NCBI GenBank assembly: GCA_027485835.1
Contig: JAIXQG010000002.1
Coordinates: forward strand, 636,232-700,231
Length of the DNA stretch: 64,000 nucleotides
Direction of reading: 5' to 3'
Source of the DNA: Alphaproteobacteria bacterium
GTDB taxonomy: Bacteria; Pseudomonadota; Alphaproteobacteria; UBA2136; UBA6156
Both the position numbers and the translations under genes were made by a program. Shown here piece by piece: positions 1,056-54,966 of the stretch (the first letter of the stretch is position 1; each line of letters begins with the position of its first letter). The notes under the pieces are model-generated. The model saw nothing but the letters and a program-made list of their open reading frames with translations, did no database searches and was not told where the DNA came from.

Positions 1056-1940
1056 TTAGTTTTCGGTCGGGATGACGTCTTGCAGGTGGGCCAGTTCGTC
1101 GGCGCTAAAGCTGACGGATTGGCCGGTGGTGTTGTCGGTCAGGGTAATCGTGCCGAGCGCGATCAGTTCGGCCAGTTCCTCCTGCGGCAGGCCGGCGAGC
1201 GCGGCGAGCATGCGCGCGCGGGGGTTATCGGCGGCGAAGGTGGGCGCTTCCGGCGGATAGGTGCTGAGGTCGTCTTCGGCGAAGAGGCGCATTAAGAGGG
1301 TTTCTGGCGCGAGCGAGGGGTCGAGGGCTTCCAGCGGGGTGAGCGTTTGCAGCAGAAGCTTCATCCGCGTCCAGTCGTCGTCGGTCAGTGGCTCTTCGTT
1401 CTGGCCGGTGGGCAGAGCTTGGAGCATGAGGGCGGTAGCTTGCTCGGTATTCGTGAACACCACGAAAAGGGTGGGGGTTTGCACCGAGTGCTCAAAGTAA
1501 TAGGCGAGACTCTCGGCGGCCGAAGTACCCGTGAGGGGGACTAATGACTGGTAGCGGTTGGAGAGGTCGGCCGGTTCCATCGTAATGGCGAAGATGCCGC
1601 CCTCGGTGCTGGCCAGCGTGCTGAACGGTGTGCCTTGGGCTGCCGGGTTGGCGTAGGCCTTAAGGGTGGCGGGGGAATCCGGGGTGGTACCACAGTGGGC
1701 GAAGATCAGTGCGCCGAGTTCGGCGTGTTGCAGTTGCAGGCTGACGGAGAGCGAGTGTTTGGTGTCGTGAGCCAAAAGCGCGGCGGCGGCGAGGAGCTCG
1801 GCCAGCGTTTGGGTGCAGGGAGTGGCTTCCTTCAGGCTGGGAATGTGATCGGACAGTTCCTTCAGTTGGAGCAAACGCCCGCGGATGGGCAGGTTGTGAA
1901 ACTGGAAGGGCAGCAGGATGTTGGCAGAAGACGTTGTCAT
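1056..1940 (-). CDS. hslO: Hsp33-like chaperone lacking the redox zinc cysteines
   Basis: A 294-residue protein resembling the redox-activated holdase Hsp33. The start contains the family-like FHNLPIRGRLLQL. The last 58 residues align with the Hsp33 redox domain (ADNPRARMLAAL, then LPQEELAELIALG, then TITLTDNTTGQSVSFSADEL). In canonical Hsp33 this region carries CxC and CxxC zinc ligands; here they read ADN and DNTTG, so all four cysteines are gone while the fold-defining hydrophobic pattern remains. If it is a chaperone it cannot be switched by the usual disulfide mechanism. ATG at 1940 is preferred because upstream residues in the longer open frame are low-complexity and overlap a hairpin. 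First gene of a pair with the sufT-like gene. Confidence 0.7.
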   Translation of the reverse strand: MTTSSANILLPFQFHNLPIRGRLLQLKELSDHIPSLKEATPCTQTLAELLAAAALLAHDTKHSLSVSLQLQHAELGALIFAHCGTTPDSPATLKAYANPAAQGTPFSTLASTEGGIFAITMEPADLSNRYQSLVPLTGTSAAESLAYYFEHSVQTPTLFVVFTNTEQATALMLQALPTGQNEEPLTDDDWTRMKLLLQTLTPLEALDPSLAPETLLMRLFAEDDLSTYPPEAPTFAADNPRARMLAALAGLPQEELAELIALGTITLTDNTTGQSVSFSADELAHLQDVIPTEN

Positions 1941-2018
1941 GGCGGCGTTGTACCTGTTTATGGGCTTCGGGGCAACCGCTGCCGACGTGAGAATGCCATG
2001 CCGTAATGATATGGTTAT

Positions 2019-2046
2019 AAAAAATGGCCCGTAGGGGGACGGGCCG
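2019..2046 (-). terminator. Terminator-like hairpin upstream of the hslO-like gene
   Basis: On the minus strand GGCCCGT, a 6-base loop and ACGGGCC are followed by ATTTTTT. This is a textbook intrinsic terminator shape, but it lies upstream of hslO in the direction of transcription, with no gene before it on that strand. It could be a leader attenuator for hslO or a remnant. The gap 1941-2395 also holds a CRP-like site and repeat copy A. Confidence 0.45.
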
Positions 2047-2133
2047 TTATTCAAGACCGCGCCGAGGGGTGGGGGGGGAGGAGGCGCGGGTGAGAGAACC
2101 CTAACAGAATGGTTGGGATTGGGAAGGGGTAGT

Positions 2134-2149
2134 TGTGACATGTGTCACA
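2134..2149. promoter_or_regulatory. CRP/FNR-family-like binding site
   Basis: TGTGA, six bases, TCACA: an exact match to the CRP core consensus, within TTGTGACATGTGTCACA. It lies in the divergent gap between the hslO-like gene (minus) and pepF (plus), about 195 bases from the hslO start. Which regulator binds is unknown; alphaproteobacteria have several CRP/FNR paralogues. Confidence 0.4.
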
Positions 2150-2173
2150 GTGGTGTGACATTTTAGTTTAAAT

Positions 2174-2306
2174 GCGCGGACTCAAGCGGCCCCCGACCAC
2201 GTTTTGACGTGGCTGATGTACCCTTTTACCGTATATGGCGCCCCGTCAAAACGCGCCCGGATGACCGTTTGCGGCTCGCGCGCAGGGGCGACAGTGCTTC
2301 GCACGG
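2174..2306 (+). repeat. Dispersed structured repeat, copy A
   Basis: Member of a seven-copy family. Outer arm CAAGCGG (2183-2189) pairs with CCGTTTG (2265-2271). An inner long hairpin of GTTTTGACG/CGTCAAAAC type has a small apical stem. A further hairpin follows (GCGCGCAG against CTTCGCAC, two mismatches). It is the most diverged copy in the internal loop. It sits in the divergent gap before pepF, so part of it would be translated if pepF started far upstream; the true start is downstream. Confidence 0.85.
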
Positions 2307-2395
2307 GAGGATTGTTGGGGAGGAGAGGTTTTGGGGTTGTGCTGGGCTGGCGGCTGTGGGAGGTTTGCGACTATCTTATAAGGAGTATTTACCGC

Positions 2396-4228
2396 ATGGC
2401 CCCTGATAACAGCCCTTCCGTTCTTGGTACCGAGAACATCCGGTGGGATTTGACCCAACTTTATACGAGTTTGGAGGATCCGCAGATTGAAGCCGATGTT
2501 ACGGCACAGATTGAGGAAATGGCTGCATTTGAGCGCGCCTTCAAGGGCAAACTTGATCATAAGCTAGGCGATGCGTTTGCCGCGATGGAGCCGCTCAATC
2601 GTCGCGGCTCCAAACTTGGGATTTACTTTTTCCTCGCACTGGCGCGGAATTCGGCCGACAAGGCGGCGGAGAAGGTTTCCAGTCGCGTAAATGAAAAGCT
2701 GGCGCAGGCCGGCGCCCAGCACCTGACCTTCTTTGATTTGGAAATGGGGAATTTATGTGATGCGGCGGTAGAGGCTCAGATGAGCCATCCGCAGGTGGTG
2801 AAGCATCTCTCTTATATCCGGCATAACCAGAAGGTGCAGAAGCACAACCTGAGCGAACAGGCTGAGGCCGTGCTGACCATGCAAGGGCCGTTTGGATCCA
2901 GCGCATGGTCGAGCCTGATGGATGAATTGGAAGGGGATTTGCGTTTTGAGTTTGATGGCAAATCACACAATCTGCCAGAAATTCTGCATGTGGTGGCGGA
3001 AGACCGTGACCGTACACGGCGGGCGGCGGCCTTGAAGGTGTTGAATACCCAGCTTAAGGCCTCCAAACATGATTTTTATGCAGCGCGTACGTTGAATGTG
3101 CATGTGGGCTCGCATTTAGCGAATGACAAGGCTCGCGGGTTTAGTCACCCGATGCAAAAAGCGAATCTTGGCAACAAGGTGGATGACGACACCGTGCGCG
3201 CCTTGCATGAAGCCGTAGAAGACAAAGCCGGTAAACTGGCGCAGCGGTTTTACCGTTTGAAGGCACGTTTGTTGGGACTAGATAAATTGGCATGGAGTGA
3301 CCGCAATGCGCCGATGCCGTTTGCCGCTGAGACGGTGTATGACTGGAAGATAAGTTGTGAGGTGGTGAAGCAGGCGTATCGGGAGTTCTCACCTACCCTC
3401 GGTGATTTGGTAGATACCGTACTTGACCCGAAAAAGGGCTGGGTGGATGCCCCGCCTGTGCCGAACAAGAGCGGTGGTGCGTTTGATTATACCGTGCCGC
3501 TGCCGGGGGAAGACCGCAGCTATATGATGCTGAACCACTTGGGCAGTGCCGGTGACGTGATGACATTGGCCCACGAACTGGGCCACGCCGTACATGGATT
3601 GTTAGCGTTGCAAGCCCAAAGCAGCCTGACGTGGCATGCGCCGATGCCCTATGCTGAAACCGCCAGTGTGTTTGGTGAAATGCTGACGTTTGAAAGCTTG
3701 ATGGCGCAATTGAGCGACCCGACCGAGAAGTTGGCGCTGTATATGGATAAGATTAATGACTTCATGAACACCGTGGTGCGGCAGATTTGTTTTTCTCAGT
3801 TTGAGCAGGCGTTTTTTGCCGAACGTGCCAACGGTAAGTTGATGGAAGAGGATTACTCCCGTTTATGGATGGAGATGACGACGCGGTTTTACGGGCCGGA
3901 GGGCGAGACGTTTACCTATGCCGACATCGATAACATGTGGTGTTACGTCAGCCACTTCTATAGTTATGCCTCGTTTTACGTGTATGCCTATGCCTTTGGC
4001 GAGCTGTTTACCCAGAGCCTGATGGCGCAGCGGGCGCGGTTGGGGGAGCGGTTTGAGCCGTTGTACCTGGATTTGTTGCGGGCTGGGGGGACCAAGAGTG
4101 CGGTGGAATTGATGGAGCCGTTCGGGCTTAACCCCAACAGCCGCGCGTTCTGGGAGGCCGGAATTGCCTGTAGCGCGGGTGTGTGGCTGGCGGAGGCGGA
4201 AAAGCTGGCGGATGAACTGGGGCTTTAG
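2396..4228 (+). CDS. pepF: Oligoendopeptidase F (M3 family metallopeptidase)
   Basis: A 610-residue cytosolic zinc peptidase that cleaves short peptides. The zinc site HELGH is at residues 393-397, with a downstream glutamate in the AETASVFGEM segment as third ligand, as in family M3. The length fits the PepF group of about 600 residues. The start at 2396 follows a good AAGGAG ribosome-binding site eight bases upstream; a longer in-frame reading begins at 2204 but runs through repeat copy A and has no site. It ends in a terminator and is followed by tRNA-Leu. Transcribed alone; probable role in peptide turnover. Confidence 0.92.
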   Translation: MAPDNSPSVLGTENIRWDLTQLYTSLEDPQIEADVTAQIEEMAAFERAFKGKLDHKLGDAFAAMEPLNRRGSKLGIYFFLALARNSADKAAEKVSSRVNEKLAQAGAQHLTFFDLEMGNLCDAAVEAQMSHPQVVKHLSYIRHNQKVQKHNLSEQAEAVLTMQGPFGSSAWSSLMDELEGDLRFEFDGKSHNLPEILHVVAEDRDRTRRAAALKVLNTQLKASKHDFYAARTLNVHVGSHLANDKARGFSHPMQKANLGNKVDDDTVRALHEAVEDKAGKLAQRFYRLKARLLGLDKLAWSDRNAPMPFAAETVYDWKISCEVVKQAYREFSPTLGDLVDTVLDPKKGWVDAPPVPNKSGGAFDYTVPLPGEDRSYMMLNHLGSAGDVMTLAHELGHAVHGLLALQAQSSLTWHAPMPYAETASVFGEMLTFESLMAQLSDPTEKLALYMDKINDFMNTVVRQICFSQFEQAFFAERANGKLMEEDYSRLWMEMTTRFYGPEGETFTYADIDNMWCYVSHFYSYASFYVYAYAFGELFTQSLMAQRARLGERFEPLYLDLLRAGGTKSAVELMEPFGLNPNSRAFWEAGIACSAGVWLAEAEKLADELGL

Positions 4229-4249
4229 AAGCTGTTTACACAGTTTTGC

Positions 4250-4279
4250 ACGGGGCCTCTTGTCAGGGGCTCCGTTTTC
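4250..4279 (+). terminator. Terminator after pepF
   Basis: ACGGGGCC and GGCTCCGT (one G-T pair) form a stem directly followed by TTTTCT, 22 bases after the pepF stop. Confidence 0.6.
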
Positions 4280-4298
4280 TGGCATTTCGATACCCGGT

Positions 4299-4382
4299 GC
4301 CGGTGTGGTGAAATGGTAGACGCGTCGGATTCAAAATCCGATTCCGAGAGGAGTGTCAGTTCGAGTCTGACCACCGGCACCA
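4299..4382 (+). tRNA. tRNA-Leu (anticodon CAA)
   Basis: Acceptor arms GCCGGTG and CACCGGC pair fully. The anticodon stem TCGGA/TCCGA encloses TTCAAAA, giving anticodon CAA. A long variable arm and an encoded CCA end are present, as expected for a class II tRNA of 84 bases. Confidence 0.95.
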
Positions 4383-4418
4383 GAATTTTCTCTTCTCTTT
4401 CAATGACAAGTTAAGCGT

Positions 4419-4928
4419 ATGGTGTGGCGAGTTCATTTTCCGCAAAGCGTGCCCTGTGAGGGTGGCTGTGTGGTGGCGATTGGCAATTTTGACGGCGTGC
4501 ATGAAGGGCACCGGCACCTGCTGGCGCTGGCGCGGGCGGAAGCCCAATGGCGGCACCTGCCGCTGGTGGTGCTAACGTTTGAGCCGCATCCGCGCAGTAT
4601 TTTACGCCCCGATGTGCCGCTGAAGCGGTTGACCACGCTCGAGGAAAAGGTGCAGCGGCTGGCGTTTGCCGAGGTGGATGGTGTGGCGGTGATTGATTTT
4701 AGCCTTGAGGTGGCGGGATGGAGCCCGCAGCGGTTTATGGAGGATATTCTGGCGGGGTGGCTGGGGGCTAAAGGTGTGTGTGTGGGCGAAAATTTCCGGT
4801 TCGGGCATAAGGCCAGTGGTGATGTGACGGCCTTGAAGGCGCGCACAGAATTCACCACCCTGGCTGTACCGTTGTTAACGGATGAAGCCGGGGTGGTGAG
4901 TAGTAGTCGCTTGCGGGGCCTTGAGTAG
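4419..4928 (+). CDS. ribF: RibF-like FMN adenylyltransferase domain only (no kinase domain)
   Basis: A 169-residue protein matching the N-terminal FAD synthetase (FMN adenylyltransferase) half of bifunctional RibF. The nucleotide-binding GNFDGVHEGH is at residues 22-31, followed by FEPHP and the ENFRFGH segment. It stops right after SSSRLR (161-166), where normal RibF continues into the riboflavin kinase domain, giving about 310 residues. No kinase remnant is seen in any frame before the next gene, so this is a clean truncation rather than a frameshift. It would make FAD from FMN but not FMN from riboflavin; the kinase must be elsewhere, or FMN is obtained otherwise (inference). The ribosome-binding site is weak. 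Confidence 0.8.
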   Translation: MVWRVHFPQSVPCEGGCVVAIGNFDGVHEGHRHLLALARAEAQWRHLPLVVLTFEPHPRSILRPDVPLKRLTTLEEKVQRLAFAEVDGVAVIDFSLEVAGWSPQRFMEDILAGWLGAKGVCVGENFRFGHKASGDVTALKARTEFTTLAVPLLTDEAGVVSSSRLRGLE

Positions 4929-4939
4929 GCTCTTCTGAG

Positions 4940-5137
4940 TTATTTGTGCCCGAGGATTCGGGAGATGATGCGCGCCGCATGTTCATTGCCTTCACTCTTC
5001 AATCGTTCTTGTTCTTGTTCTAGGTAACGCTGCGCGGAGGGGTCTCCGTTCAGGGCTTCTAGCACGAGATCGGGATAATCCAGAACTTCGGCAAGAATTC
5101 GTTCGGTGTCGGTCGGGATGCTGGTATGCATGTTCAT
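4940..5137 (-). CDS. Small hypothetical protein
   Basis: A 65-residue acidic, mostly helical protein with no recognised domain. The start at 5137 is chosen because GGAGGAC lies four bases upstream on the minus strand, a strong ribosome-binding site. The sequence is rich in Glu/Arg and ends ISRILGHK. It converges on ribF (11 bases between stops) and diverges from ileS. A longer reading to 5503 overlaps ileS and is rejected. Confidence 0.6.
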   Translation of the reverse strand: MNMHTSIPTDTERILAEVLDYPDLVLEALNGDPSAQRYLEQEQERLKSEGNEHAARIISRILGHK

Positions 5138-5272
5138 GACGTCCTCCGTGATGAAAAGATAGATGATGGTACGCTCTGCTATTAGGGTTTCTATTTTGCC
5201 ACAGGGGGTTGCGAAACGCCAGCTTTTTCGGTAGGTTTGCGGCCTACCCCGCGTATACCCCAGATGATGTAG

Positions 5273-8218
5273 ATGAAAGAATTTTGTGTGTCCGACGCCC
5301 CAAATGCTGTGAGTAAAAAGTCTGACAAACCCGAGCAGAATGCCTGGAGCGATACGCTGCGGCTGCCGAAGACGGACTTCCCGATGCGGGCGGGCTTGGC
5401 CCAGCGTGAACCGGCTTGGGTGCAGCGCTGGCTGGACAACGATGTGTATGGCGAACTGTGCCGTATGCGTTTGGCGGAGAAGGCGCCTGCGTATATTGTT
5501 CACTTAGGCCCCCCGTATGCCAACGGCCGCATGCACATGGGCCACGCGCTGACCTACACGCTGAAGGACTTTGTGGTGCGCAGCAAGTTTATGGCCGGAT
5601 TTTACAGCCCGTATGCGCCCGGTTGGGATTGCCACGGCCTGCCGATTGAGTGGAAGGTGGAGCAAGACCTGCGCGCCGAGGGCAAGAGCAAGCATGACAT
5701 TAGCAAGACCGAGCTGCGGGCGCGCTGCCGTGCCTACGCCCAAAAATGGGTGGATGTGCAGAAGGCCGACTGGCAGCGCTTTGGGGCTTTAGGGGATTGG
5801 GACCACCCGTACCTGACGATGGCGCCGAAGAACGAGGCGGGTATTGTGCGCGAGCTGGGCAAGCTGGTGCAGCGTGGCTTAGTGGAGAAGAATCTGCGTT
5901 CCACCCAGTGGAGCTGGGCCGAAGAAACCGCGATGGCGGAAGCCGAAGTTGAGTATAAAGATGTGACGAGTACGGCGGTTTATGTCGCTTTGCCAATCGT
6001 GGGCCGTGAGAACGAGCATTTGGTGATTTGGACTACTACGCCTTGGACTCTGCCGGCGAACCGTGCTGTGGCGGTGAAGGTGGATGAAGATTATTGTTCG
6101 ATTGAGGTTGCTGCTGCAGCCCGTAATGGCTCAGAACTATCTCCTCAACTTGGAAAAAAGCTTTGGATTGCTGAATCTCTGTTAGAGGCTTTTACCAATG
6201 CTGTGGGTATCGGCGGACATGTCGTTACTAAACAAAAGGGTGAACAGCTTGTTGGCTGGCAGTACCAACACCCGCTGTACAACACCGTGCAGCCGGTGGT
6301 GGAGGGCTTCCATGTGACCACCGATGCCGGTACGGGCTTGGTGCATATTGCTCCGGCGCATGGCGCGGAGGACTTTGTGATTGGCAAGCAGTTTGGCTTG
6401 CCGCTGGAATGCCCTGTGGATGGCGCTGGGAAGTATGTGGCGGGGACGCCAAGCCTGCCGCTTACTGGTGAGGTGATTGAAGGCAAGTTGATCTGGCCGA
6501 TGCAGAAGCTGATTTTGGCCGAGTTGGAGCAGAGCGGGCGGTTGCTTTCTGCTAAAGACTTCCAGCACAGCTACCCCGTGAGTTGGCGCTCGAAGGAGAA
6601 GCTGATTTTCCGGACGACTGAGCAGTGGTTTGTGAGCCTTGATAAGCCGATCAAGGGATTGATTGCCGAGCAGCCGGAGCTTGAGATTTCTCTGCGTGAT
6701 GCCAGCTTGGCACGTATTTACGGTAAGGATGCCAAGGGCCACGCCGCGCGCAAGGTCAACTGGGTGCCGGAGTACGGCATGAATCGGATTGGCAGCATGA
6801 TTGAGAACCGTCCGGATTGGTGTATTTCCCGCCAGCGCGCGTGGGGTGTGCCGATTACGATTTTCATGGTGAAAAAGACCGGTGTGGACGGCGTGGAGAA
6901 CGGTTTGGTGACCGACCCTGCGGTGTTTGAACACGTGGCCAAGCTGATTGAAGCCGAGACGATTGATGCGTGGGATAGTCGGATTGAGGCGGGTCGGGTA
7001 GCGGAATTGTTCCCTCCCAACTGGCTGGAGAGCCGTGGCTTGACGGTGGCCGATGTGGAGCCGGTGACGGATATTCTCGACGTGTGGTTTGACAGCGGCA
7101 CGACGCACGCCCACGTGCTGCGCGCCGAGGGTGGTGAGGGGCAGCGCTTCCACCGTACCGACGGCAAGCGTCCGGCCGATTTGTACCAAGAGGGTAGCGA
7201 CCAGCACCGTGGGTGGTTCCACTCGTCGTTGCTCACCAGCGTGGCGAACTATGGCGATGCGCCGTATGAGAACGTTGTGACGTCGGGCTTCGTGGTGGAT
7301 GGTGAAGGCCGCAAATTTAGCAAGAGCCTTGGCAATGGTGTGGAGCCGCACCAGCTGATGGACAAGTACGGGATGGATATCATCCGGTTGTGGGTGGCGA
7401 GTTCGGATTATTCCGAGGACATCCGTTACAGCCCGCAGATTATGGATTCCATGGCCGATGCGTACCGGCGTTTCCGTAATACCTTCCGCTGGTTATTGGG
7501 CAACCTGAACGGCGTGGCCGATGTGGACGTAGATGTGGCGAGCCTGCCGGAGTTGGAGCGTTACATGCTGCACCGCTTGGGCACTGTGCTGGCTGAGGTG
7601 CGCGGGCATTACGATGCGTATCAATTCCATAAGGGCTACCGCGCGCTGTATGAGTTCTGTGGCACGGAGCTCTCGAACTTCTACTTTGATGTGCGCAAAG
7701 ACGTGCTGTACTGCGATGCGGCGAGCAGTGCGACGCGCAAGGCAACTGTGGCCGTGCTGGTGCAGGTGTTCCGTGGTTTGGTGACGCACTTGGCACCGCT
7801 GATGCCGTTTACGACGGATGAGGCGTGGCGCGAGCGCTATGGTGAGGATGCGTGTGTGCATAAGGAGCGCTTCCAGACCGTGCCGGAGGTGGGTGTGGAG
7901 GAGAGCCGTTGGACCGGTCTGTTTGAAACACGCGATGCCGTAAACGTGGAGCTGGAAAAGCTGCGTACGGCCGGTGGTGTGGGGGCTAACAGCGAGGCAT
8001 CGATTACCTTGGCTGATGCCGGTGTGCCTGCCGAACTGCTGCGCGAAGTGTTGGGCGTGAGCAAAGTGAGTTTTGCCTCTGGCCTGAGTGTGGCGAAGCA
8101 CGACGGACATAAGTGCCCACGTTGCTGGCGTTACTATGACACGGTGGAGGAATCCGGCTTATGCTTGCGCTGTGACGAGGCTGTTACCGAGAGCAACATG
8201 ACGCAAGGAGCCGCCTAA
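5273..8218 (+). CDS. ileS: Isoleucyl-tRNA synthetase
   Basis: A 981-residue class I synthetase charging tRNA-Ile. The HIGH-type motif is PPYANGRMHMGH (residues 80-91) and the KMSKS-type motif is KFSKS (681-685). The editing (CP1) domain lies between them. The C-terminal zinc finger keeps both CxxC pairs (CPRC from 948, then CLRC). Length is slightly above the usual 930-960. The N-terminal 25 residues are not conserved, so the start could be a little downstream, for example a GTG near 5288. It heads a likely operon with the next gene and lspA. Confidence 0.95.
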   Translation: MKEFCVSDAPNAVSKKSDKPEQNAWSDTLRLPKTDFPMRAGLAQREPAWVQRWLDNDVYGELCRMRLAEKAPAYIVHLGPPYANGRMHMGHALTYTLKDFVVRSKFMAGFYSPYAPGWDCHGLPIEWKVEQDLRAEGKSKHDISKTELRARCRAYAQKWVDVQKADWQRFGALGDWDHPYLTMAPKNEAGIVRELGKLVQRGLVEKNLRSTQWSWAEETAMAEAEVEYKDVTSTAVYVALPIVGRENEHLVIWTTTPWTLPANRAVAVKVDEDYCSIEVAAAARNGSELSPQLGKKLWIAESLLEAFTNAVGIGGHVVTKQKGEQLVGWQYQHPLYNTVQPVVEGFHVTTDAGTGLVHIAPAHGAEDFVIGKQFGLPLECPVDGAGKYVAGTPSLPLTGEVIEGKLIWPMQKLILAELEQSGRLLSAKDFQHSYPVSWRSKEKLIFRTTEQWFVSLDKPIKGLIAEQPELEISLRDASLARIYGKDAKGHAARKVNWVPEYGMNRIGSMIENRPDWCISRQRAWGVPITIFMVKKTGVDGVENGLVTDPAVFEHVAKLIEAETIDAWDSRIEAGRVAELFPPNWLESRGLTVADVEPVTDILDVWFDSGTTHAHVLRAEGGEGQRFHRTDGKRPADLYQEGSDQHRGWFHSSLLTSVANYGDAPYENVVTSGFVVDGEGRKFSKSLGNGVEPHQLMDKYGMDIIRLWVASSDYSEDIRYSPQIMDSMADAYRRFRNTFRWLLGNLNGVADVDVDVASLPELERYMLHRLGTVLAEVRGHYDAYQFHKGYRALYEFCGTELSNFYFDVRKDVLYCDAASSATRKATVAVLVQVFRGLVTHLAPLMPFTTDEAWRERYGEDACVHKERFQTVPEVGVEESRWTGLFETRDAVNVELEKLRTAGGVGANSEASITLADAGVPAELLREVLGVSKVSFASGLSVAKHDGHKCPRCWRYYDTVEESGLCLRCDEAVTESNMTQGAA

Positions 8219-8220
8219 CT

Positions 8221-8940
8221 TTGGCGCCGGAGATTGAAACCAAGGAGGTCTTTCTGCCTTCCCGCATTTTAGAAATGTGCGTGAAGGGCTGGGAAGAAGC
8301 GGATGACGCGGCGCTGGCGCGTGCGGTGGGCGAGGCCATGGAGCACGCCTACTGGCACTGGCGCTGGCTGATGGCGGTACGTGCGAAAAAATGCCGCTTG
8401 GTGGTGGTACAGGTGCGCGATGCGCGCGGCGTGGAAATGATGCCGCATTACCAGATTGGGGAACTTTCGACGCTGAGCGGTTGGCACCCCGAGCGCGCGA
8501 TTGCGGAGGCCCAGACCGAGCTGGCCGAAAGCGGTGACGGCCTGACCTTTGACCTGCCGGTGGACAGCGAGATGATGAGCGAGTGGGTGAGTATCGCCCG
8601 CAGCTTTGATGTGGACGCCGACAGTGCCTTGGAATTGCTGGGCAGTGCCATGGTGTTGCTGGACAACGCCCATGACGCCTATGTGGACGAGCTGGGTGAG
8701 AATTTTTACGTGGCGACGCGCGGGCTTGAGCGCGACCTTGATGCCTTGATTGGCGACGAATACGGCCGTTGGAGCGCCGAAACCATGCAAGTGGTGGACA
8801 AGCACAGCACCGTGGGCATGGCGCAGATTTTTCCGGAAGTGCCGGACGGTATGACGACGGCGGTGCCGATTGTGTATCTGCCCGAAATTATTGAAGAAGC
8901 TGAGGATGATGAGGACGAGGCCGATGATGCACGTAGCTAA
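8221..8940 (+). CDS. Hypothetical acidic protein between ileS and lspA
   Basis: A 239-residue protein of no recognised family. It most likely starts at TTG 8221, 2 bases after the ileS stop, with AAGGAG ten bases upstream inside ileS. It is strongly acidic, with a C-terminal Glu/Asp run, and shows no signal peptide or membrane segment, so it is probably cytosolic. Composition and codon use match its neighbours. It overlaps the start of lspA by 17 bases, which implies translational coupling. Constant linkage with ileS and lspA suggests a housekeeping or envelope-related role, but none can be stated. Confidence 0.7.
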   Translation: MAPEIETKEVFLPSRILEMCVKGWEEADDAALARAVGEAMEHAYWHWRWLMAVRAKKCRLVVVQVRDARGVEMMPHYQIGELSTLSGWHPERAIAEAQTELAESGDGLTFDLPVDSEMMSEWVSIARSFDVDADSALELLGSAMVLLDNAHDAYVDELGENFYVATRGLERDLDALIGDEYGRWSAETMQVVDKHSTVGMAQIFPEVPDGMTTAVPIVYLPEIIEEAEDDEDEADDARS

Positions 8941-9418
8941 GGTTTTGGCGTACTTTAATGTACGTACCGCCGGTTTGGCAATCGGGTTTGTGAGCCTGCT
9001 GGCGGACTATTTTAGCAAGGCGTGGGCCTTGGCGATGGAAGCCAGTGGCAACCTTCCGTTGTGGTGGGTGCCGGGGGAAATCGGTTTCCGGTTTGCATGG
9101 AACCGCGGGATGAGTTTTTCGCTCCTCAACGACGTGGCGTGGGGGCCGTGGGTGCTGGGGACTGTGGCGGTGGCGGCATGTATCTGGTTTATCCATTGGC
9201 TGGGCGAAAGCACACGCTTTTTACACCAATGGGGCTTGGGACTGCTAATTGGCGGCGCCGCCGGTAACGTGATTGACCGCGTGCAGCACGGTGCGGTTGT
9301 AGACTTTTTACTGTTTAACCCGCAGGGGCTGTTCCCGTTCACGTTTAATGTGGCCGATGCCGCGATTACGGTAGGTGTGGTGATGCTGCTGCTGGACAGC
9401 TGGCGTCAACGTGCTTAG
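8924..9418 (+). CDS. lspA: Lipoprotein signal peptidase II
   Basis: About 164 residues with four hydrophobic segments; an inner-membrane aspartyl peptidase that cleaves prolipoproteins. Family motifs are present: NRGMSFSLLND, GGAAGNVIDRV with the first catalytic Asp, and FNVADAAIT with the second. Two adjacent ATG codons (8924, 8927) are possible starts; GGACGAGG lies just upstream inside the previous gene. The next gene encodes a lipoprotein, a natural substrate. Confidence 0.93.
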   Translation: MMHVAKVLAYFNVRTAGLAIGFVSLLADYFSKAWALAMEASGNLPLWWVPGEIGFRFAWNRGMSFSLLNDVAWGPWVLGTVAVAACIWFIHWLGESTRFLHQWGLGLLIGGAAGNVIDRVQHGAVVDFLLFNPQGLFPFTFNVADAAITVGVVMLLLDSWRQRA

Positions 9419-9465
9419 TATCTCGGCTAACAAAATCAGTTTTTAAGAAAAGGGGAAACCGACTC

Positions 9466-9915
9466 ATGCGTAACGTGCAAATGGCAATGGTGGCAACAGC
9501 CCTGCTGCTGGCGGCCTGTGGCGGTAGCGCCGGTAAGCTGATGGGCAAGAGCATGCCGGATGAAACGCAGGTGATTGATGGCCCGACGCTGGCGTTGCCG
9601 CCGCAGTATGAGCTGCGTCCGCCCCGTGAGGCTGCCGATTACGAAAGCGTGCTGCGTGCCCAAAAGACCGTGGAAGCCCAAGAACTGATTACCGGTGTGA
9701 GCGGTACGGCGGTGGCTCCGGCCATGGGGGCCGTGCCGGCCGGTGACGACTGGTTGGTGAAGCAAACCAGTCAGCAAGTAGGTGTGGTGGCCGACCCCGG
9801 CGTGCGTGAAGACCTGCGCGTGGTGACACCGGAGGAATTGAAGGAACGCGAAGAGGCCAAGGCTAAGAAGGGCTTATTGGGCCGTTGGTTTGGCCGGACC
9901 TCGGACGACGAGTAA
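9466..9915 (+). CDS. bamF: BamF-like lipoprotein (DUF3035)
   Basis: A 149-residue lipoprotein with a signal peptide and lipobox LLAAC (Cys at 18). The body is proline- and glutamate-rich, with PPQYELRPPRE shortly after the lipobox and a basic/acidic C-terminus (LGRWFGRTSDDE). This layout and its position after lspA and before an M16 peptidase match the alphaproteobacterial DUF3035 family, described as the BamF accessory lipoprotein of the outer-membrane beta-barrel assembly complex. The ribosome-binding site AGGGGA is well spaced. The family call rests on layout and context more than on strong motifs. Confidence 0.65.
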   Translation: MRNVQMAMVATALLLAACGGSAGKLMGKSMPDETQVIDGPTLALPPQYELRPPREAADYESVLRAQKTVEAQELITGVSGTAVAPAMGAVPAGDDWLVKQTSQQVGVVADPGVREDLRVVTPEELKEREEAKAKKGLLGRWFGRTSDDE

Positions 9916-9920
9916 GCTTG

Positions 9921-11324
9921 ATGAAGATTCGCTGGACGAAGGGCATGCGGGGCGCTTGGAGCGCCCTGTTGCTGCTGGCAGGTATAACAGGGGTTAGTAA
10001 GGGATACGCAGAGATGGATATTCAGGATTTTACACTACAGAACGGTATGAAGGTGCTGGTGGTGCATGACGGCCGTGCGCCGGTGGTGACCCACAGCGTG
10101 TGGTACAACGTGGGCAGCATGGACGAAAAGCCCGGCAAGACCGGCCTTGCCCACATGACCGAGCACCTGATGTTCAAGGGCACCAAAACCTACCCTGCGG
10201 GTGTGATGGATAAGATGGTCCAGCGCAAGGGCGGTGTGCTGAATGCCTTTACCAGCTACGATTTTACCGCCTATTACGAAAAGGTGCCGGTGACCGAGCT
10301 TGAGCCGATGATGGACATTGAAAGTGACCGGATGAGCAACTTGCAGCTTTCCGATGCGGTGTTCCAGCCCGAGCGCAATGTGGTGGCGGAAGAGCGTAAG
10401 CTCCGCACCGACAGCGACCCGACGGACCGCTTTTTTGAGCAGGTGATGCGGCGCCATTTCCCGCACCATACTTATGGTCACCCCGTGATTGGCTGGGGCG
10501 CGGATATTCAGGGTTACACCTTTGAGGACGCGATGGACTGGTACAAGACCCATTACGCGCCGAACAACGCCACGCTGATTTTGGTTGGTAACGTGACGGC
10601 CGATCAAGTGAAACCGCTGGCTGAAAAGTACTACGGGAAATTGCCCGCGGAAGACGTGCCGGAGCGTGTGATTCCGGTGGAACCGCTGCGTACGGCGCCG
10701 CTGGAGTACATCAAGATTGACCCGCAGGTGCAGGTGGTGGGCTGGACCGTGATGTACCGCACGCCGAGCCAGTTCCAAGGTGTGGCCGGGGCACCGGTGG
10801 TGGCCGGTGAGGCGACGGGGTTGTGGGTGCTTTCCGAAATTCTGGGCGGTGGCAGCACGTCGCGGTTGTATCAGGAACTGGTGGTGAAGCAGCAGTTGGC
10901 CGATGGCGCGAGCGCGCAGTACGATGTGGTACGTGCGGGGGAAAGCACATTTGATATTTCGGTTCAGCCCAAGGAGACCGTGACCGCCGACACCGTGACC
11001 GATGCGGTGCAGACATTGATCGACGACCTATTGGCGAACGGTGTGACCGAAGAGGAATTGCAACGCGCCAAGGTGAGCATTAAGGCCGATGAGATTTACG
11101 CCCGTGATGACCCGTTCACCAGCCTGTACCGTTTGGGGATGTGGGTGACGGTGGCCGGTGCGGTTGCCGATTTCAATACCTGGCAGAAGGAGCTGGACGC
11201 TTTGACCGTTGCCGATGTGAATGCGCTGGCACGCAAGTACTTCAAGCCGGAAGGACGGACGCTCTCCGTGCTGGCGGGCAACACCCAGCAACTGGGAAAA
11301 CTGAAGGTTACCAAAGATCAGTAG
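9921..11324 (+). CDS. M16 family zinc peptidase, catalytic partner
   Basis: A 467-residue secreted peptidase of the pitrilysin/processing-peptidase family. The signal peptide is about 33 residues, ending near GYA-EM. The inverted zinc motif HMTEH is at residues 78-82, with the downstream glutamate in the VVAEERKLR segment. M16 proteins of this length usually act with a non-catalytic partner, which here lies at 13410-14828. The start at 9921 is five bases after the previous stop; an in-frame ATG at 9885 would overlap it. Likely periplasmic. Confidence 0.88.
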   Translation: MKIRWTKGMRGAWSALLLLAGITGVSKGYAEMDIQDFTLQNGMKVLVVHDGRAPVVTHSVWYNVGSMDEKPGKTGLAHMTEHLMFKGTKTYPAGVMDKMVQRKGGVLNAFTSYDFTAYYEKVPVTELEPMMDIESDRMSNLQLSDAVFQPERNVVAEERKLRTDSDPTDRFFEQVMRRHFPHHTYGHPVIGWGADIQGYTFEDAMDWYKTHYAPNNATLILVGNVTADQVKPLAEKYYGKLPAEDVPERVIPVEPLRTAPLEYIKIDPQVQVVGWTVMYRTPSQFQGVAGAPVVAGEATGLWVLSEILGGGSTSRLYQELVVKQQLADGASAQYDVVRAGESTFDISVQPKETVTADTVTDAVQTLIDDLLANGVTEEELQRAKVSIKADEIYARDDPFTSLYRLGMWVTVAGAVADFNTWQKELDALTVADVNALARKYFKPEGRTLSVLAGNTQQLGKLKVTKDQ

Positions 11325-25657: not shown

Positions 25658-26614
25658 ATGGCTAAAACACAGGGTATCGAGGTGTCGATTGTGGTTCCGC
25701 TTTACAATGAGGAAGAGAGCCTGCCGCTGCTGGTGGAAAAAACCGCCGCCGCGATGCGCCCGACCGGTAAGGCGTGGGAGCTGGTGTGTGTGAATGACGG
25801 CAGCCGCGATGGAACGGCCGAGGTTTTGGAAAAACTGGAAGCGAAGTATCCGGAACTGGTGGGCGTGTACTTCCGCCGCAATTACGGCCAGACGGCAGCG
25901 ATGCAGGCGGGGTTTGATGCCGCTCGAGGGTCGGTCATTGTGACCATGGACGGTGACCTGCAGAACGACCCCAAGGATATTCCGGCTTTGCTGGCACGGA
26001 TGGAGGAGACGGGTGCGGATATCGTTTCTGGTTGGCGCAAGGAGCGTAAAGATGCCGAGCTGACCAGTAATTTCCCCAGCCGGATGGCCAACCGTCTGAT
26101 ATCGAAAATCACCGGTTTGAAGCTGCATGACAGCGGTTGCAGCCTGAAAGCCTACAAGGCGGATTTGTTGAACGAGCTGCATATTTATGGCGAATTGCAC
26201 CGGTTTATCCCTGCAGTTGCCATGCAGTATGGTGCGAAAGTGGATGAAGTGGTGGTAACCCACCATGCCCGCCAGTTTGGCGAGAGCAAGTATGGTTTGG
26301 ACAAGACCATCCGTGTCGCGCTGGATATCATCCAGCTGTACTTCTTCCAGAAGTTTTTACACCGGCCGATGCACTTCTTTGGCTATATGGGCCTTGTGCT
26401 GATGGTGCCGGGGGGTGTGATGATGACGTGGCTGTTGCTACTAAAGCTGTTTGGGCAGGACATTGGCGGCCGACCGATGCTGATTGCGGCGATGATGCTG
26501 ATTTTGCTGGGGGTGCAGTTGTTGGGAATGGGCGTGCTTGGGGAAGTGCTGACGCGCATCTATCACGAACCGCAGGGACGTAAGCAATACGTATTGAGGA
26601 AACGCGCGGGTTAA
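25658..26614 (+). CDS. ArnC-like polyprenyl-phosphate glycosyltransferase (GT2)
   Basis: A 318-residue GT2 enzyme: an N-terminal GT-A domain (VVPLYNEEESLP, VNDGSRDGT, MDGDLQNDP with the DxD-like metal site) and two C-terminal membrane helices, as in ArnC/DPM1-type enzymes that load a sugar onto undecaprenyl phosphate. ATG 25658 has AAGGAGAG eight bases upstream; an upstream in-frame ATG at 25637 has none. Its stop codon lies inside repeat copy B. Last gene of the PAP2-ArnT-ArnC unit. Confidence 0.88.
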   Translation: MAKTQGIEVSIVVPLYNEEESLPLLVEKTAAAMRPTGKAWELVCVNDGSRDGTAEVLEKLEAKYPELVGVYFRRNYGQTAAMQAGFDAARGSVIVTMDGDLQNDPKDIPALLARMEETGADIVSGWRKERKDAELTSNFPSRMANRLISKITGLKLHDSGCSLKAYKADLLNELHIYGELHRFIPAVAMQYGAKVDEVVVTHHARQFGESKYGLDKTIRVALDIIQLYFFQKFLHRPMHFFGYMGLVLMVPGGVMMTWLLLLKLFGQDIGGRPMLIAAMMLILLGVQLLGMGVLGEVLTRIYHEPQGRKQYVLRKRAG

Positions 26615-26712
26615 AACGGCCCCCCAGCACTTTTTGGCGTGGCTTATGTACCTTTATTTTTGTACACCGCGCCCCGCCAAAAAGCACCGGGATGTCCGTT
26701 TGTAACCTCGCG
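26604..26712 (+). repeat. Dispersed structured repeat, copy B
   Basis: Outer arms AAACGG (26614-26619) and CCGTTT (26696-26701) pair. The inner arms CAGCACTTTTTGGCG and CGCCAAAAAGCACCG flank a small TGTAC/GTACA apical stem. The 3' trailing part differs from the other copies. The 5' end overlaps the last codons and the TAA of the preceding gene. Confidence 0.88.
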
Positions 26713-33319: not shown

Positions 33320-33874
33320 ATGCTAAGCGCCATGGCAGATTGGCAACGCACTTTGTGGAAGGATATCGCGGCATTGGACGATGTGGTGCCGCACGCCGGT
33401 GCCTATGTACTGGTGGTGGGCAACGGTTTGCCGGTGGCGTTTGAGGGCGACGTGCGCGTGCGCGAACGCGATTTTGGCGAGGCTATGGGCGAGGATGCGG
33501 GGTTTCATCGGATAATCGTGCTGGCGCGAGGCGGTGTGACGATTGATTACCCATTACTGTTGAAACAGATGTGGCCGTTGCTGCGGCCCGATGGCTTTTT
33601 AGTGCTGGTAACCGCGCGCCCCAACCCATGGGGCTTGCGCGGCAGCGTGTGGTGGCATGGTTATGCACGCCGCCATTGGTTGCGCTGGCTGAAGGAGGCG
33701 CGTTGGCTGATTGCCGATGATGAAACCGTGGGGTTTGGTTCGCGCTGGGTGAGTTGGATGCCGTGTGGCGGGGCGGTGCGGGTGTTTCTGGCGCAGAAGC
33801 GAGTTGGTGGTGTGAAGGTACTGGCACGCGAGGGGGATGTGGTGAAGGCGAAGCCTGTGGGCGTGCCTGTATAG
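33320..33874 (+). CDS. Short class I methyltransferase-like protein
   Basis: About 184 residues. AYVLVVGNGLPVA looks like a worn version of the SAM-binding motif I (hhDhGxGxG). The centre MWPLLRPDGFLVLVTARPNPWGLRG matches the motif post-III region of class I methyltransferases. The N-terminal part is short, and an intact SAM site is not evident. It diverges from the MBL-like gene 75 bases away, so the two probably share a regulatory region. The start is uncertain (33275, 33320 or 33332). Repeat copy C follows. Confidence 0.5.
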   Translation: MLSAMADWQRTLWKDIAALDDVVPHAGAYVLVVGNGLPVAFEGDVRVRERDFGEAMGEDAGFHRIIVLARGGVTIDYPLLLKQMWPLLRPDGFLVLVTARPNPWGLRGSVWWHGYARRHWLRWLKEARWLIADDETVGFGSRWVSWMPCGGAVRVFLAQKRVGGVKVLAREGDVVKAKPVGVPV

Positions 33875-33886
33875 GGTAAAATGAAG

Positions 33887-34092
33887 GCGCGGACTAAAAC
33901 CGCCCCCAAGCACGCTTTGGCGTGGCTTATGTACCCTTGCTTCCGTACACCGCGCCACGCCAAATCGCACTTGGATGACGGTTTGTAGCCTCGCGCGCAG
34001 GGGCTTCCGCGAGGGGGCGACTCCCTCGCGGTTGGCGCTAGGAGAGCTATGGCCTGCGGCCATGTCTCGCGCCAAAAGGAAGGCTTTGCCTG
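33887..34092 (+). repeat. Dispersed structured repeat, copy C (long subfamily)
   Basis: The inner arms CCAAGCACGCTTTGGCGTGG and CCACGCCAAATCGCACTTGG pair over most of 20 bases. The outer arms AAACCGCC and GACGGTTT pair with one mismatch. The 3' extension, shared only with copy F, has hairpins CCGCGAGGG/CCCTCGCGG, GGCGC/GCGCC enclosing ATGGCC/GGCCAT, and AGGC/GCCT. It fills the 221-base gap between the methyltransferase-like gene and rmuC. Confidence 0.9.
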
Positions 34093-38786: not shown

Positions 38787-38801
38787 TGCCACTTTAGAAG
38801 G

Positions 38802-38941
38802 GCACGGGCTAAAACCCTCCCCCAGCACTTTTTGGCGGGTCTGAAATACTCGGTATGTATTCGGTGCCCCGCCAAAAAGCACTGGGATGAGCGTTTGTAG
38901 CTCCGTGCGCAGGGGCAACGGCGCTGTGCGCCGGTTTTTTT
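38802..38941 (+). repeat. Dispersed structured repeat, copy D
   Basis: The closing arms GCACGG and CCGTGC pair perfectly. The inner arms CCCAGCACTTTTTGGCGGG and CCCGCCAAAAAGCACTGGG pair except for the conserved CA/CA internal loop. The apical AATAC/GTATT stem differs in sequence from the GTAC type of the other copies but is still paired. The trailing GGCGC/GCGCC hairpin plus T7 is a likely terminator for the lipoprotein gene. Confidence 0.9.
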
Positions 38942-39273: not shown

Positions 39274-39537
39274 ATGATTGGTGTCGGACTTTTAGGGGCC
39301 ATACTGGTAGGTATTCTGGCCGGTTTTATTGCCGAACAACTGATGGGCGGCAACCACGGTTTGCTGACCAATCTGGTGGTCGGTTTGATTGGGGCGTTGA
39401 TCGGGCCTGCTGTGCTCGGGTCTCTCGGCATGATGCCCGCAGGCGGCGGCTTTTTGGCCAGCTTGGCGATTAGCACCGTGGGGGCAATTATCTTCCTGTT
39501 CCTGCTGCGCCTTGTTATGCGTAAGCCGGTGGCTTAA
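39274..39537 (+). CDS. GlsB/YeaQ/YmgE-family small membrane protein
   Basis: 87 residues with three hydrophobic segments, Gly-rich, with GFIAEQLMGG and GLIGALIGPAVLG matching the transglycosylase-associated (YeaQ/YmgE/GlsB) family. Members are often stress-induced; the molecular role is unclear. AGGA lies upstream of ATG 39274. Confidence 0.8.
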   Translation: MIGVGLLGAILVGILAGFIAEQLMGGNHGLLTNLVVGLIGALIGPAVLGSLGMMPAGGGFLASLAISTVGAIIFLFLLRLVMRKPVA

Positions 39538-39556
39538 ATCGGTGACTTAAGAACGG

Positions 39557-39580
39557 CAGGGGTCATAACGGCCCCTGTTT
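39557..39580 (+). terminator. Probable terminator after the GlsB-like gene
   Basis: CAGGGG, nine bases, CCCCTG, then TTT. The T-run is short. Confidence 0.45.
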
Positions 39581-39594
39581 CCGCTTTGTTTTAA

Positions 39595-39623
39595 TTGACA
39601 GTTTTTTGAAAACGTGATATATT
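39595..39623 (+). promoter_or_regulatory. Near-consensus sigma-70 promoter
   Basis: TTGACA (39595-39600), exactly 17 bases, then TATATT (39618-39623): a full -35 match and five of six at -10. The start of transcription would be near 39630, just before a perfect hairpin. It is by far the best promoter match I noticed in the window. Confidence 0.7.
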
Positions 39624-39642
39624 TAATCTGTTAATTTTGCTT

Positions 39643-39691
39643 AGTTCTCTCGTTGGCAAAAGAGAAACCCTCTTTTGCCAACGAGAGAACT
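39643..39691 (+). repeat. Perfect 22-bp inverted repeat (hairpin)
   Basis: The arms at 39643-39664 and 39670-39691 are exact reverse complements with a five-base loop AAACC. It would form a very stable hairpin about 13 bases from the predicted transcript start. It lies in an AT-rich island unlike its surroundings. Confidence 0.9.
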
Positions 39692-39859
39692 GCTTTAGTT
39701 CGACGTCTTAAAGAATTTTTCTGGGACTTACTGCGGCTTTTCATTCGAGAACTCCTTAAGGTGTTTGTTAAGTGCTTGTATGATAAAGCGTTATCTTGGT
39801 TTTCGCAAGTAAATATGAGTGATATTCTTCGTTTTTTCAGTGACTTGATTTGGTTTTGA
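39653..39859 (+). CDS. Possible small amphipathic peptide (68 codons)
   Basis: An open frame from TTG 39653 that begins within the 22-bp hairpin and ends 17 bases before a terminator. The product is rich in Leu, Phe, Lys and Arg with aromatic residues (LKEFFWDLLRLFIRELL), like an amphipathic membrane-active peptide. There is no visible ribosome-binding site and the start is buried in the hairpin, so the unit may instead encode a non-coding RNA of about 270 bases. AT-rich compared with its neighbours. Confidence 0.3.
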   Translation: MAKEKPSFANERTALVRRLKEFFWDLLRLFIRELLKVFVKCLYDKALSWFSQVNMSDILRFFSDLIWF

Positions 39860-39875
39860 GAGGTGGATGAAGATT

Positions 39876-39903
39876 TGAAAAAGGCCCCATAAAGGGCCTT
39901 TCG
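39876..39903. terminator. Bidirectional terminator before trxB
   Basis: AAAAAGGCCC, a short loop, GGGCCTTT. It ends the AT-rich unit on the plus strand and trxB on the minus strand. Confidence 0.8.
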
Positions 39904-39914
39904 TTTAGTTGTCG

Positions 39915-40868
39915 TTACTGCCCGAGGGATTCGAGGTAGCGGTTGGCGTCGAGGGCTGCCATGCAGCCCATGCCGGCGGCGGTGACGGCTTGGCGGTAGA
40001 CGCTGTCGGCGACGTCGCCCGCCACATAAATACCGGGAATCGGCTGGCCCATTTGCGTGGGCAGCACGGTGCCGGGCATGCGCTTGAGGTAGCCGGTTTC
40101 GTCCATGTCCAACTGGTTGGCGAAGAGGTCGGTGTTCGGTTTGTGGCCGATGGCGACGAACATGCCGTGGACCGGCAGTTCGGAGATGGTTCCGTCGACA
40201 AGATTTTTGAGCTTGAGGCCGGTGACGCCGCCGGTGATGGGATGGGGGTCGCCGAGGATCTCTTCCACCGCGCTGTTCCAGATGACGCTGATTTTCTCGT
40301 GGTTGAGGACGCGGTTTTGCAGGACCTTTTCGCCGCGGAAGCTGTCGCGTCGGTGGACCACGGTGACGTGCTTGGCGATGTTGGCGAGGTAGAGGGCTTC
40401 TTCCAGCGCGCTGTTACCACCGCCGATGACGGCGACGTCTCGATTACGGTAAAAGGCACCGTCGCAGGTGGCGCAGGCGGAGACGCCCTTACCGTTGTAG
40501 GTTTTTTCGCCCTCTAAACCCAGCCATTTGGCGCTGGCGCCGGTAGCGATGATGATTGCGTCGGCGGTGTACTGCGTGCCGTTCATGCCGGTGAGGGTTT
40601 TGGTGGTGAGGTCGGCCTTCATGATGTGGTCGGCGACGACTTCGACTCCGCAGTGTTTGGCTTGGGCTTCCATTTGCTCCATCAGCCACGGGCCTTGTAC
40701 GGCTTCGGCAAAGCCCGGGAAGTTCTCGACATCGGTGGTGATGGTGAGCTGGCCGCCTGGCTGGTTGCCGCGGATAAGCGTGGTTTTGATACCGGCACGC
40801 GCGGCATAGATAGCGGCGGTGCAACCGGCAGCGCCGGAGCCAAGAACGATGAGGGAGTGTTGTGTCAT
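39915..40868 (-). CDS. trxB: Thioredoxin reductase
   Basis: A 317-residue flavoprotein: FAD motif GSGAAGCTAA, redox-active C132-A-T-C135 in SACATCDG, NADPH motif GGGNSALEEAL, HRR, and the C-terminal FAD block GIYVAGDVAD. It reduces thioredoxin with NADPH. It diverges from a 2-Cys peroxiredoxin gene with an OxyR-like site between them, giving a peroxide-defence pair. Confidence 0.95.
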   Translation of the reverse strand: MTQHSLIVLGSGAAGCTAAIYAARAGIKTTLIRGNQPGGQLTITTDVENFPGFAEAVQGPWLMEQMEAQAKHCGVEVVADHIMKADLTTKTLTGMNGTQYTADAIIIATGASAKWLGLEGEKTYNGKGVSACATCDGAFYRNRDVAVIGGGNSALEEALYLANIAKHVTVVHRRDSFRGEKVLQNRVLNHEKISVIWNSAVEEILGDPHPITGGVTGLKLKNLVDGTISELPVHGMFVAIGHKPNTDLFANQLDMDETGYLKRMPGTVLPTQMGQPIPGIYVAGDVADSVYRQAVTAAGMGCMAALDANRYLESLGQ

Positions 40869-42210: not shown

Positions 42211-42246
42211 GACACTACCTTACGGTGGTTTGTGGTTTTCGGCAAG

Positions 42247-42386
42247 GTACGGGCTAAAACCCTCCCACAGCACTTTTTAGCGTGGCTTATGTACCCAATT
42301 GCCGTACACGGCGCCCCGCCAAAAAGCACCGTGAAAGGGTTTGTAGCTCCGTACGCAGGGGCGACGGTGCTGCGTACCGGACTTTT
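42247..42386 (+). repeat. Dispersed structured repeat, copy E
   Basis: Closing arms GTACGG/CCGTAC and outer arms AAACCCT/AGGGTTT pair perfectly, both differing in sequence from copies B, D and G in a compensated way. The inner arms have the usual TTTTT/AAAAA core. The trailing hairpin GTACGCAG/CTGCGTAC is perfect and again compensated. It fills much of the 321-base divergent gap 42211-42531, where nothing else is clear. Confidence 0.9.
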
Positions 42387-47924: not shown

Positions 47925-47937
47925 GGTTGCGGGAGAG

Positions 47938-48142
47938 GCGCGGCCTAAAACCGTCCCCAAGCACGCTTTGGCGTGGCTTATGTACCTTCGTTTTCGTACA
48001 CCGCGCCATGCCAAATCGCACTTGGATGACGGTTTGTAGCCTCGCGTGCAGGGGCTTCCGCGCAGGGGCATTTCCTGCGCGTTTGGCGCTCCGAGAGGGA
48101 TGCGCTGCGCGCATATCTCGCGCCAAAAGGAATGCTGCGCAT
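47938..48142 (+). repeat. Dispersed structured repeat, copy F (long subfamily)
   Basis: Closest to copy C. The outer arms AAACCGTC/GACGGTTT are perfect. The inner 20-base arms are almost the same as in C. In the 3' extension CCGCGCAGG/TCCTGCGCG, ATGCGC/GCGCAT and AATGC/GCATT replace the C-copy arms with paired substitutes. It fills the 274-base gap between rlmH and the envC-like gene, both on the plus strand. Confidence 0.9.
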
Positions 48143-52470: not shown

Positions 52471-52515
52471 AAAAATGCGTATGTAAGTAAATTTACACTT
52501 ACATACGCATTTTTG
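52471..52515 (+). terminator. Terminator after rppH
   Basis: Perfect 18-base arms (52471-52488 and 52497-52514) with an eight-base loop; the 3' arm ends in T5. The remaining gap to 52680 shows no other clear feature. Confidence 0.88.
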
Positions 52516-54804: not shown

Positions 54805-54826
54805 TTCTTTTCTATACCTTATTTGG

Positions 54827-54966
54827 GCGCGGGCCGAAACGGCGCCACAGCACTTTTTCGTTTGGCTTATGTACCTTCTTTTCCTGTACACGGCGCCAAA
54901 CGAAAAAGCACCGTGCCACCGTTTCTGCCTCGCGCGCAGGGGCGACGGCGCTGCGCGCCGGATTCT
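54827..54966 (+). repeat. Dispersed structured repeat, copy G
   Basis: Outer arms GAAACGG/CCGTTTC pair perfectly. The inner arms CACAGCACTTTTTCGTTTGGC and GCCAAACGAAAAAGCACCGTG show the TCGTTTGG/CCAAACGA variation, compensated in both arms. The trailing hairpin GCGCGCAG/CTGCGCGC is perfect. It lies between xerC and the YdcF-like gene, both on the minus strand, and so is antisense to them. Confidence 0.92.

Follow-up and report, generated by a model that had tools for sequence, protein, structure and literature searches.

An AT-rich unit lies in the spacer between the convergent Transgly_assoc and trxB genes of an alphaproteobacterial genome. The genome is 1.53 Mb in two contigs. Among named relatives, those nearest to it are alphaproteobacterial MAGs, of which one from a pond is closest. 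The window, i.e. the whole 64-kb stretch of DNA analysed, carries the following features at this locus:

39274..39537, plus strand: Transgly_assoc (Transglycosylase-associated) gene, encoding an 87-aa small membrane protein; upstream neighbour (Pfam PF04226, E 7.5e-11)
about 39555-39592: terminator of the Transgly_assoc gene, with a stem common to both congeners
39595..39623, plus strand: sigma-70-type promoter TTGACA-17-TATATT, 11/12 matches, TG before the second hexamer
39630..39905, plus strand: predicted transcript of about 276 nt, its start inferred from the promoter and its end from the terminator
39643-39664 / 39670-39691, plus strand: perfect inverted repeat, 22 bp with a 5-nt loop (-37.6 kcal/mol), with TTG 39653 in the 5' arm
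39653..39859, plus strand: 68-codon frame with a TTG start and without a ribosome-binding site; predicted long amphipathic helix
39880..39901: terminator stem in common with trxB, kept in the congener G001, which lacks the unit
39915..40868, minus strand: trxB, thioredoxin reductase, convergent neighbour (TIGR01292 above cut-off)

The first-pass annotation had described the unit as much more AT-rich than its surroundings, and its GC content is indeed 36.9% against 59.2% for the window, where only 0.06% of 309-nt stretches are as low in GC. As a larger background we used the window plus twenty stretches from elsewhere in the genome, one of which (L147) reads as N. Together they give 444 kb of readable sequence, in which 0.7% of stretches are as AT-rich. 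The unit occurs once in its own genome, only the locus itself matching, and was therefore rejected as a dispersed repeat or insertion sequence.

Promoter, hairpin and terminator

The near-consensus promoter proposed in the first-pass annotation is present, and sites scoring at least 11/12 (at most one mismatch) number just three in the 444 kb, this one included. Judging from its position, transcription would be expected to start at about 39630. The perfect 22-bp inverted repeat reported earlier was likewise recovered, spanning 39643-39691; it is the joint longest perfect stem in the 444 kb, equalled by one other 22-bp stem, in L133. Both elements are thus rare and lie only about 20 bases apart (19-20 bases from promoter to hairpin), a pairing not expected by chance.

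The stem in L133 and most of the next-longest perfect stems are A/T-flanked and terminator-like. The hairpin of the unit was rejected as an intrinsic terminator because it has no T run on either strand, the stem being followed by GCTTTAGTTC and, on the opposite strand, by AAGCAAAATT; a pattern scan calls it terminator-like solely via 5 T in 8. It was also rejected as a member of a repeat family, being single copy, and neither the hairpin nor its arm patterns matched anything in viral contigs. Elsewhere in the window, a perfect 18-bp hairpin (AAAAATGCGTATGTAAG..., 52471-52514) occupies part of another AT-rich spacer, which follows a gene that looks NUDIX-like by eye; this stem is A/T-flanked and terminator-like.

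A bidirectional terminator had been assigned to the unit. The stem at 39880-39901 is present, but it is better in the direction of trxB (minus strand, T5 tail), and G001 has a matching GGCCCC/GGGGCC stem at its trxB end. G001 in fact has the terminators on both sides of the spacer, as GCAGGGGCC...GGCCCCT and AAAAAAGGCCCC...GGGGCCTTTTTT. Since the stem is conserved in a congener lacking the unit, it is in the first place the terminator of trxB and independent of the unit, and the earlier assignment of it to the unit needs correcting.

Against its shuffles, the predicted RNA folds lower by 5 sd. Hairpin and terminator account for this excess, as the body alone (39695-39876) has a z of +0.70; the body folds no better than shuffles, and a structured regulatory RNA is therefore not indicated. 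Over the gathering score, Rfam returned only tRNAs and the SRP RNA in the window, and the matches at the locus were all sub-threshold and confined to the hairpin. The 6S RNA model (RF00013) had no match at the locus. As a separate observation, 6S RNA went undetected with this model in the three genomes of the genus (this one, G000, and its congeners G001 and G002), although the model did find it in 6 of 14 control genomes, including Caulobacter.

The 68-codon frame and its predicted peptide

The frame begins inside the hairpin, as had been noted, and no ribosome-binding site is visible for it. Upstream of the hairpin's end there is only one standard start codon, TTG 39653, and no ATG. The length of the frame is marginal, given that 5% of dinucleotide shuffles of the transcript hold an equally long one (P about 0.05). 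The encoded peptide would have 68 aa and a net charge of +4. Using AlphaFold2 on the single sequence, we obtained a helix over residues 8-52 (45 residues) and another over 55-66, with a pTM of 0.43 and block pLDDT of 91-92 in the helix core (residues 21-40).

The amphipathic character remarked on in the first-pass annotation is pronounced. Over 18 residues the maximal helical hydrophobic moment of the frame is 0.81. For comparison, the 168 bases behind the hairpin were shuffled, and the 2300 resulting open frames with 50 or more codons had a mean of 0.42 (sd 0.10), a single one reaching as high a value; the other frames of the same DNA never exceed 0.48. Against shuffles of the peptide's own amino acids the amphipathicity has a P of 0.0025, although these P values are optimistic, as the statistic was chosen after that remark had been made. 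An amphipathicity so far above that of shuffled frames favours a real or relic small protein, for which we regard the sequence evidence as moderate.

Relatives, synteny and origin

The whole-unit homology search suggested in the first-pass annotation returned no relatives: no DNA match to the unit was found in 290 relative genomes. One weak match from the first search (G047) was set aside as chance-like, because it lies in very AT-rich DNA and extends over nothing but the promoter region and the very start of the hairpin. There was no credible peptide match in the order or in 385 genomes of the class, where two matches with E just below 0.01 (G169 and G230) were rejected as covering short parts only, one of them across stop codons. 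Phages, plasmids, viral contigs and GTDB genome contigs likewise gave no credible peptide match, and phages and plasmids gave no DNA matches of note. Among peptide families, nothing rose above the cut-off in Pfam, and nothing was found in PHROGs (best E 0.33), NCBIfam or PADLOC.

The gene order in G001 is the same (tRNA-Gly, Transgly_assoc gene, spacer, trxB), and its TrxB is 90% identical. Between the two terminators, G001 carries an unrelated sequence in place of the unit, namely a dispersed repeat of the genus with 8 matches in G001 and 21 in G002. In G002, the unit is found neither in the 155 nt after the Transgly_assoc gene nor in the 94 nt after trxB, both of which run to contig ends. 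The unit is thus specific to this lineage at this position. According to the first-pass annotation, absence of the hairpin from close syntenic relatives combined with neutral decay would count against its reading; half of this was found, in that the hairpin is missing in G001, the sole fully syntenic congener.

Of the three readings offered originally (regulatory RNA, type I toxin-like locus and foreign fragment), the foreign fragment fared best, given the low GC, the single copy and the absence from syntenic G001 and from all relatives searched. We infer a foreign origin from these sequence features. The unrelated dispersed repeat in the G001 spacer indicates that this site accepts extra DNA. 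Elsewhere, too, GC-rich genes are separated by AT-rich stretches whose frames are unrelated and look like orphans (for example L132 at 6131 and L130 at 201), so that uptake of single AT-rich genes looks usual in this genome. Like horizontally acquired AT-rich ORFans, the unit has a low GC content, a single copy and no homologues, and sits between housekeeping genes; it differs in being much shorter than the other AT-rich frames of this genome (about 180 and 200 residues) and in carrying the perfect 22-bp hairpin. On the other hand, relatives may lack the unit because it was lost or drifted fast, and not because this lineage gained it.

Several further observations were made elsewhere in the genome. 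At about 6031-6557 in L132 and about 1-600 in L130 there are frames of 25-29% GC, unlike their GC-rich neighbours, which look like separately acquired orphan genes. L134 holds an AT-rich island at about 1360-10600, starting with the first part of a gene that by eye looks ATPase-like (P-loop GENNGGKSN) and containing further unusual genes; it could be a defence island. Within the 64 kb of the window there are seven copies of a dispersed palindromic intergenic repeat (2161-2273, 26591-26704, 33874-33987, 38789-38899, 42234-42346, 47925-48038 and 54814-54928), about 115-220 bases long, with a similarity of roughly 60-84% between copies and arms resembling CAGCACTTTTTGGCG / CGCCAAAAAGCAC; this repeat differs from the one in the G001 spacer. 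The unit resembles the dispersed palindromic repeats of the genus in being intergenic and containing an inverted repeat, and the same spacer is filled by a dispersed repeat in G001, but the unit is single-copy and its sequence is unrelated.

A candidate mini-gene and its alternatives

The reading we favour, held tentatively and at somewhat less than an even chance, is that of a recently gained AT-rich orphan mini-gene with its TTG start locked in a 5' hairpin, which would be type-I-toxin-like in its layout. It would have arrived in the spacer that separates the Transgly_assoc gene from trxB. From the strong sigma-70 promoter, RNA polymerase would produce an RNA of ~276 nt that stops at the terminator it has in common with trxB. 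This RNA would most likely be the mRNA, or the relic of an mRNA, of a 68-residue amphipathic helical peptide. Because the TTG start lies inside the 22-bp 5' hairpin, little translation would be expected from the primary transcript as long as the stem stayed closed and uncut. RNase III cuts long duplexes, and opening or cutting of the hairpin, for example by this enzyme, would then permit translation. This reading is favoured by a promoter and a hairpin that are both at the extreme of the 444-kb sample and by the unstructured, mRNA-like body of the RNA. Transcription, translation, a silencing role of the hairpin and membrane activity of the peptide are all predictions from the sequence.

The likeness to type I toxin systems is partial. 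The tisB, zorO and timP mRNAs are also short and monocistronic, with a strong 5' structure hiding the translation start and a small helical peptide as product. In contrast to these, the unit has no established antitoxin RNA, no ribosome-binding site and no sequence homology, and its product would form a charged amphipathic helix, with no clear membrane span; at 68 aa, this peptide is also longer than typical type I toxins, which have <60 aa (PMC11264685). The start codon does appear hidden by mRNA structure, TTG 39653 being in the 5' arm of the predicted stem, but there is no ribosome-binding site to hide, and no toxin family matches in sequence. In many type I toxins, structure silences the primary mRNA (PMC11228461), and control further involves processing and an antisense RNA; at this locus, only a candidate for the silencing structure is seen. 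The layout and the amphipathic peptide fit the earlier idea of a type I toxin-like locus whose start is sequestered, but no convincing antitoxin RNA was found. An antisense RNA could conceivably come from the minus strand, where a 9/12 promoter-like site (39808-39780) inside the frame would yield an RNA antisense to the frame's 5' half. However, this weaker site is expected by chance, as the scan found 2 promoter-like sites against a mean of 0.9 in shuffles, no terminator for such an RNA was found on the minus strand, and the peptide has no toxin homologue; we consider a complete type I locus of this kind very improbable. Equally improbable is a single-gene system of a previously undescribed type, in which a membrane-active amphipathic peptide without a ribosome-binding site, its TTG buried in the 22-bp hairpin, would be freed by a duplex-cutting RNase (e.g. 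upon phage infection or stress), with no antisense antitoxin involved.

Two other explanations weigh more heavily. Inert debris is nearly as likely as a mini-gene, and a non-coding sRNA less so. The unit could well be a foreign or drifted AT-rich fragment in a tolerant spacer between two terminators, with the promoter and the frame as remnants and the hairpin as the product of a single template switch, and do nothing now. This would agree with its presence in one genome only and with the unrelated dispersed repeat carried by the same spacer of G001. One replication template switch can create a perfect, short-spaced inverted repeat (PMC8794818). As the inverted repeat and the frame's 5' end overlap, an original start may have been overwritten; such a rewriting of the gene's 5' end, if it happened, would explain the missing ribosome-binding site. 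Nevertheless, a promoter 19 bases before a hairpin, an intact and strongly amphipathic frame and a terminator directly behind are better organised than usual debris. A non-coding regulatory RNA, in which the 5' hairpin would protect from decay and the AU-rich single-stranded body or GAGAGGUGG near the 3' end would pair with target mRNAs, strikes us as rather unlikely. Intergenic bacterial sRNA genes usually consist of a strong promoter, a stable 5' stem-loop and a terminator, yet nothing positive emerged beyond the hairpin: the unit has no Rfam family and an unstructured body, the terminator belongs to trxB, no relative has the unit in which covariation could be counted, and the amphipathicity of the open frame would be left unexplained.

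Taken as a whole, the observation is confirmed and the interpretation in the first-pass annotation is partly supported; the locus is real and unusual-looking, but probably minor. If the mini-gene is expressed, it would be a compact case of a small foreign gene entering the slim genome of an uncultured alphaproteobacterium with a promoter of its own and an inbuilt lock on translation. If it is not expressed, the locus would illustrate how spacers between terminators gather foreign fragments and repeats, the same spacer holding two unrelated sequences in two congeners.
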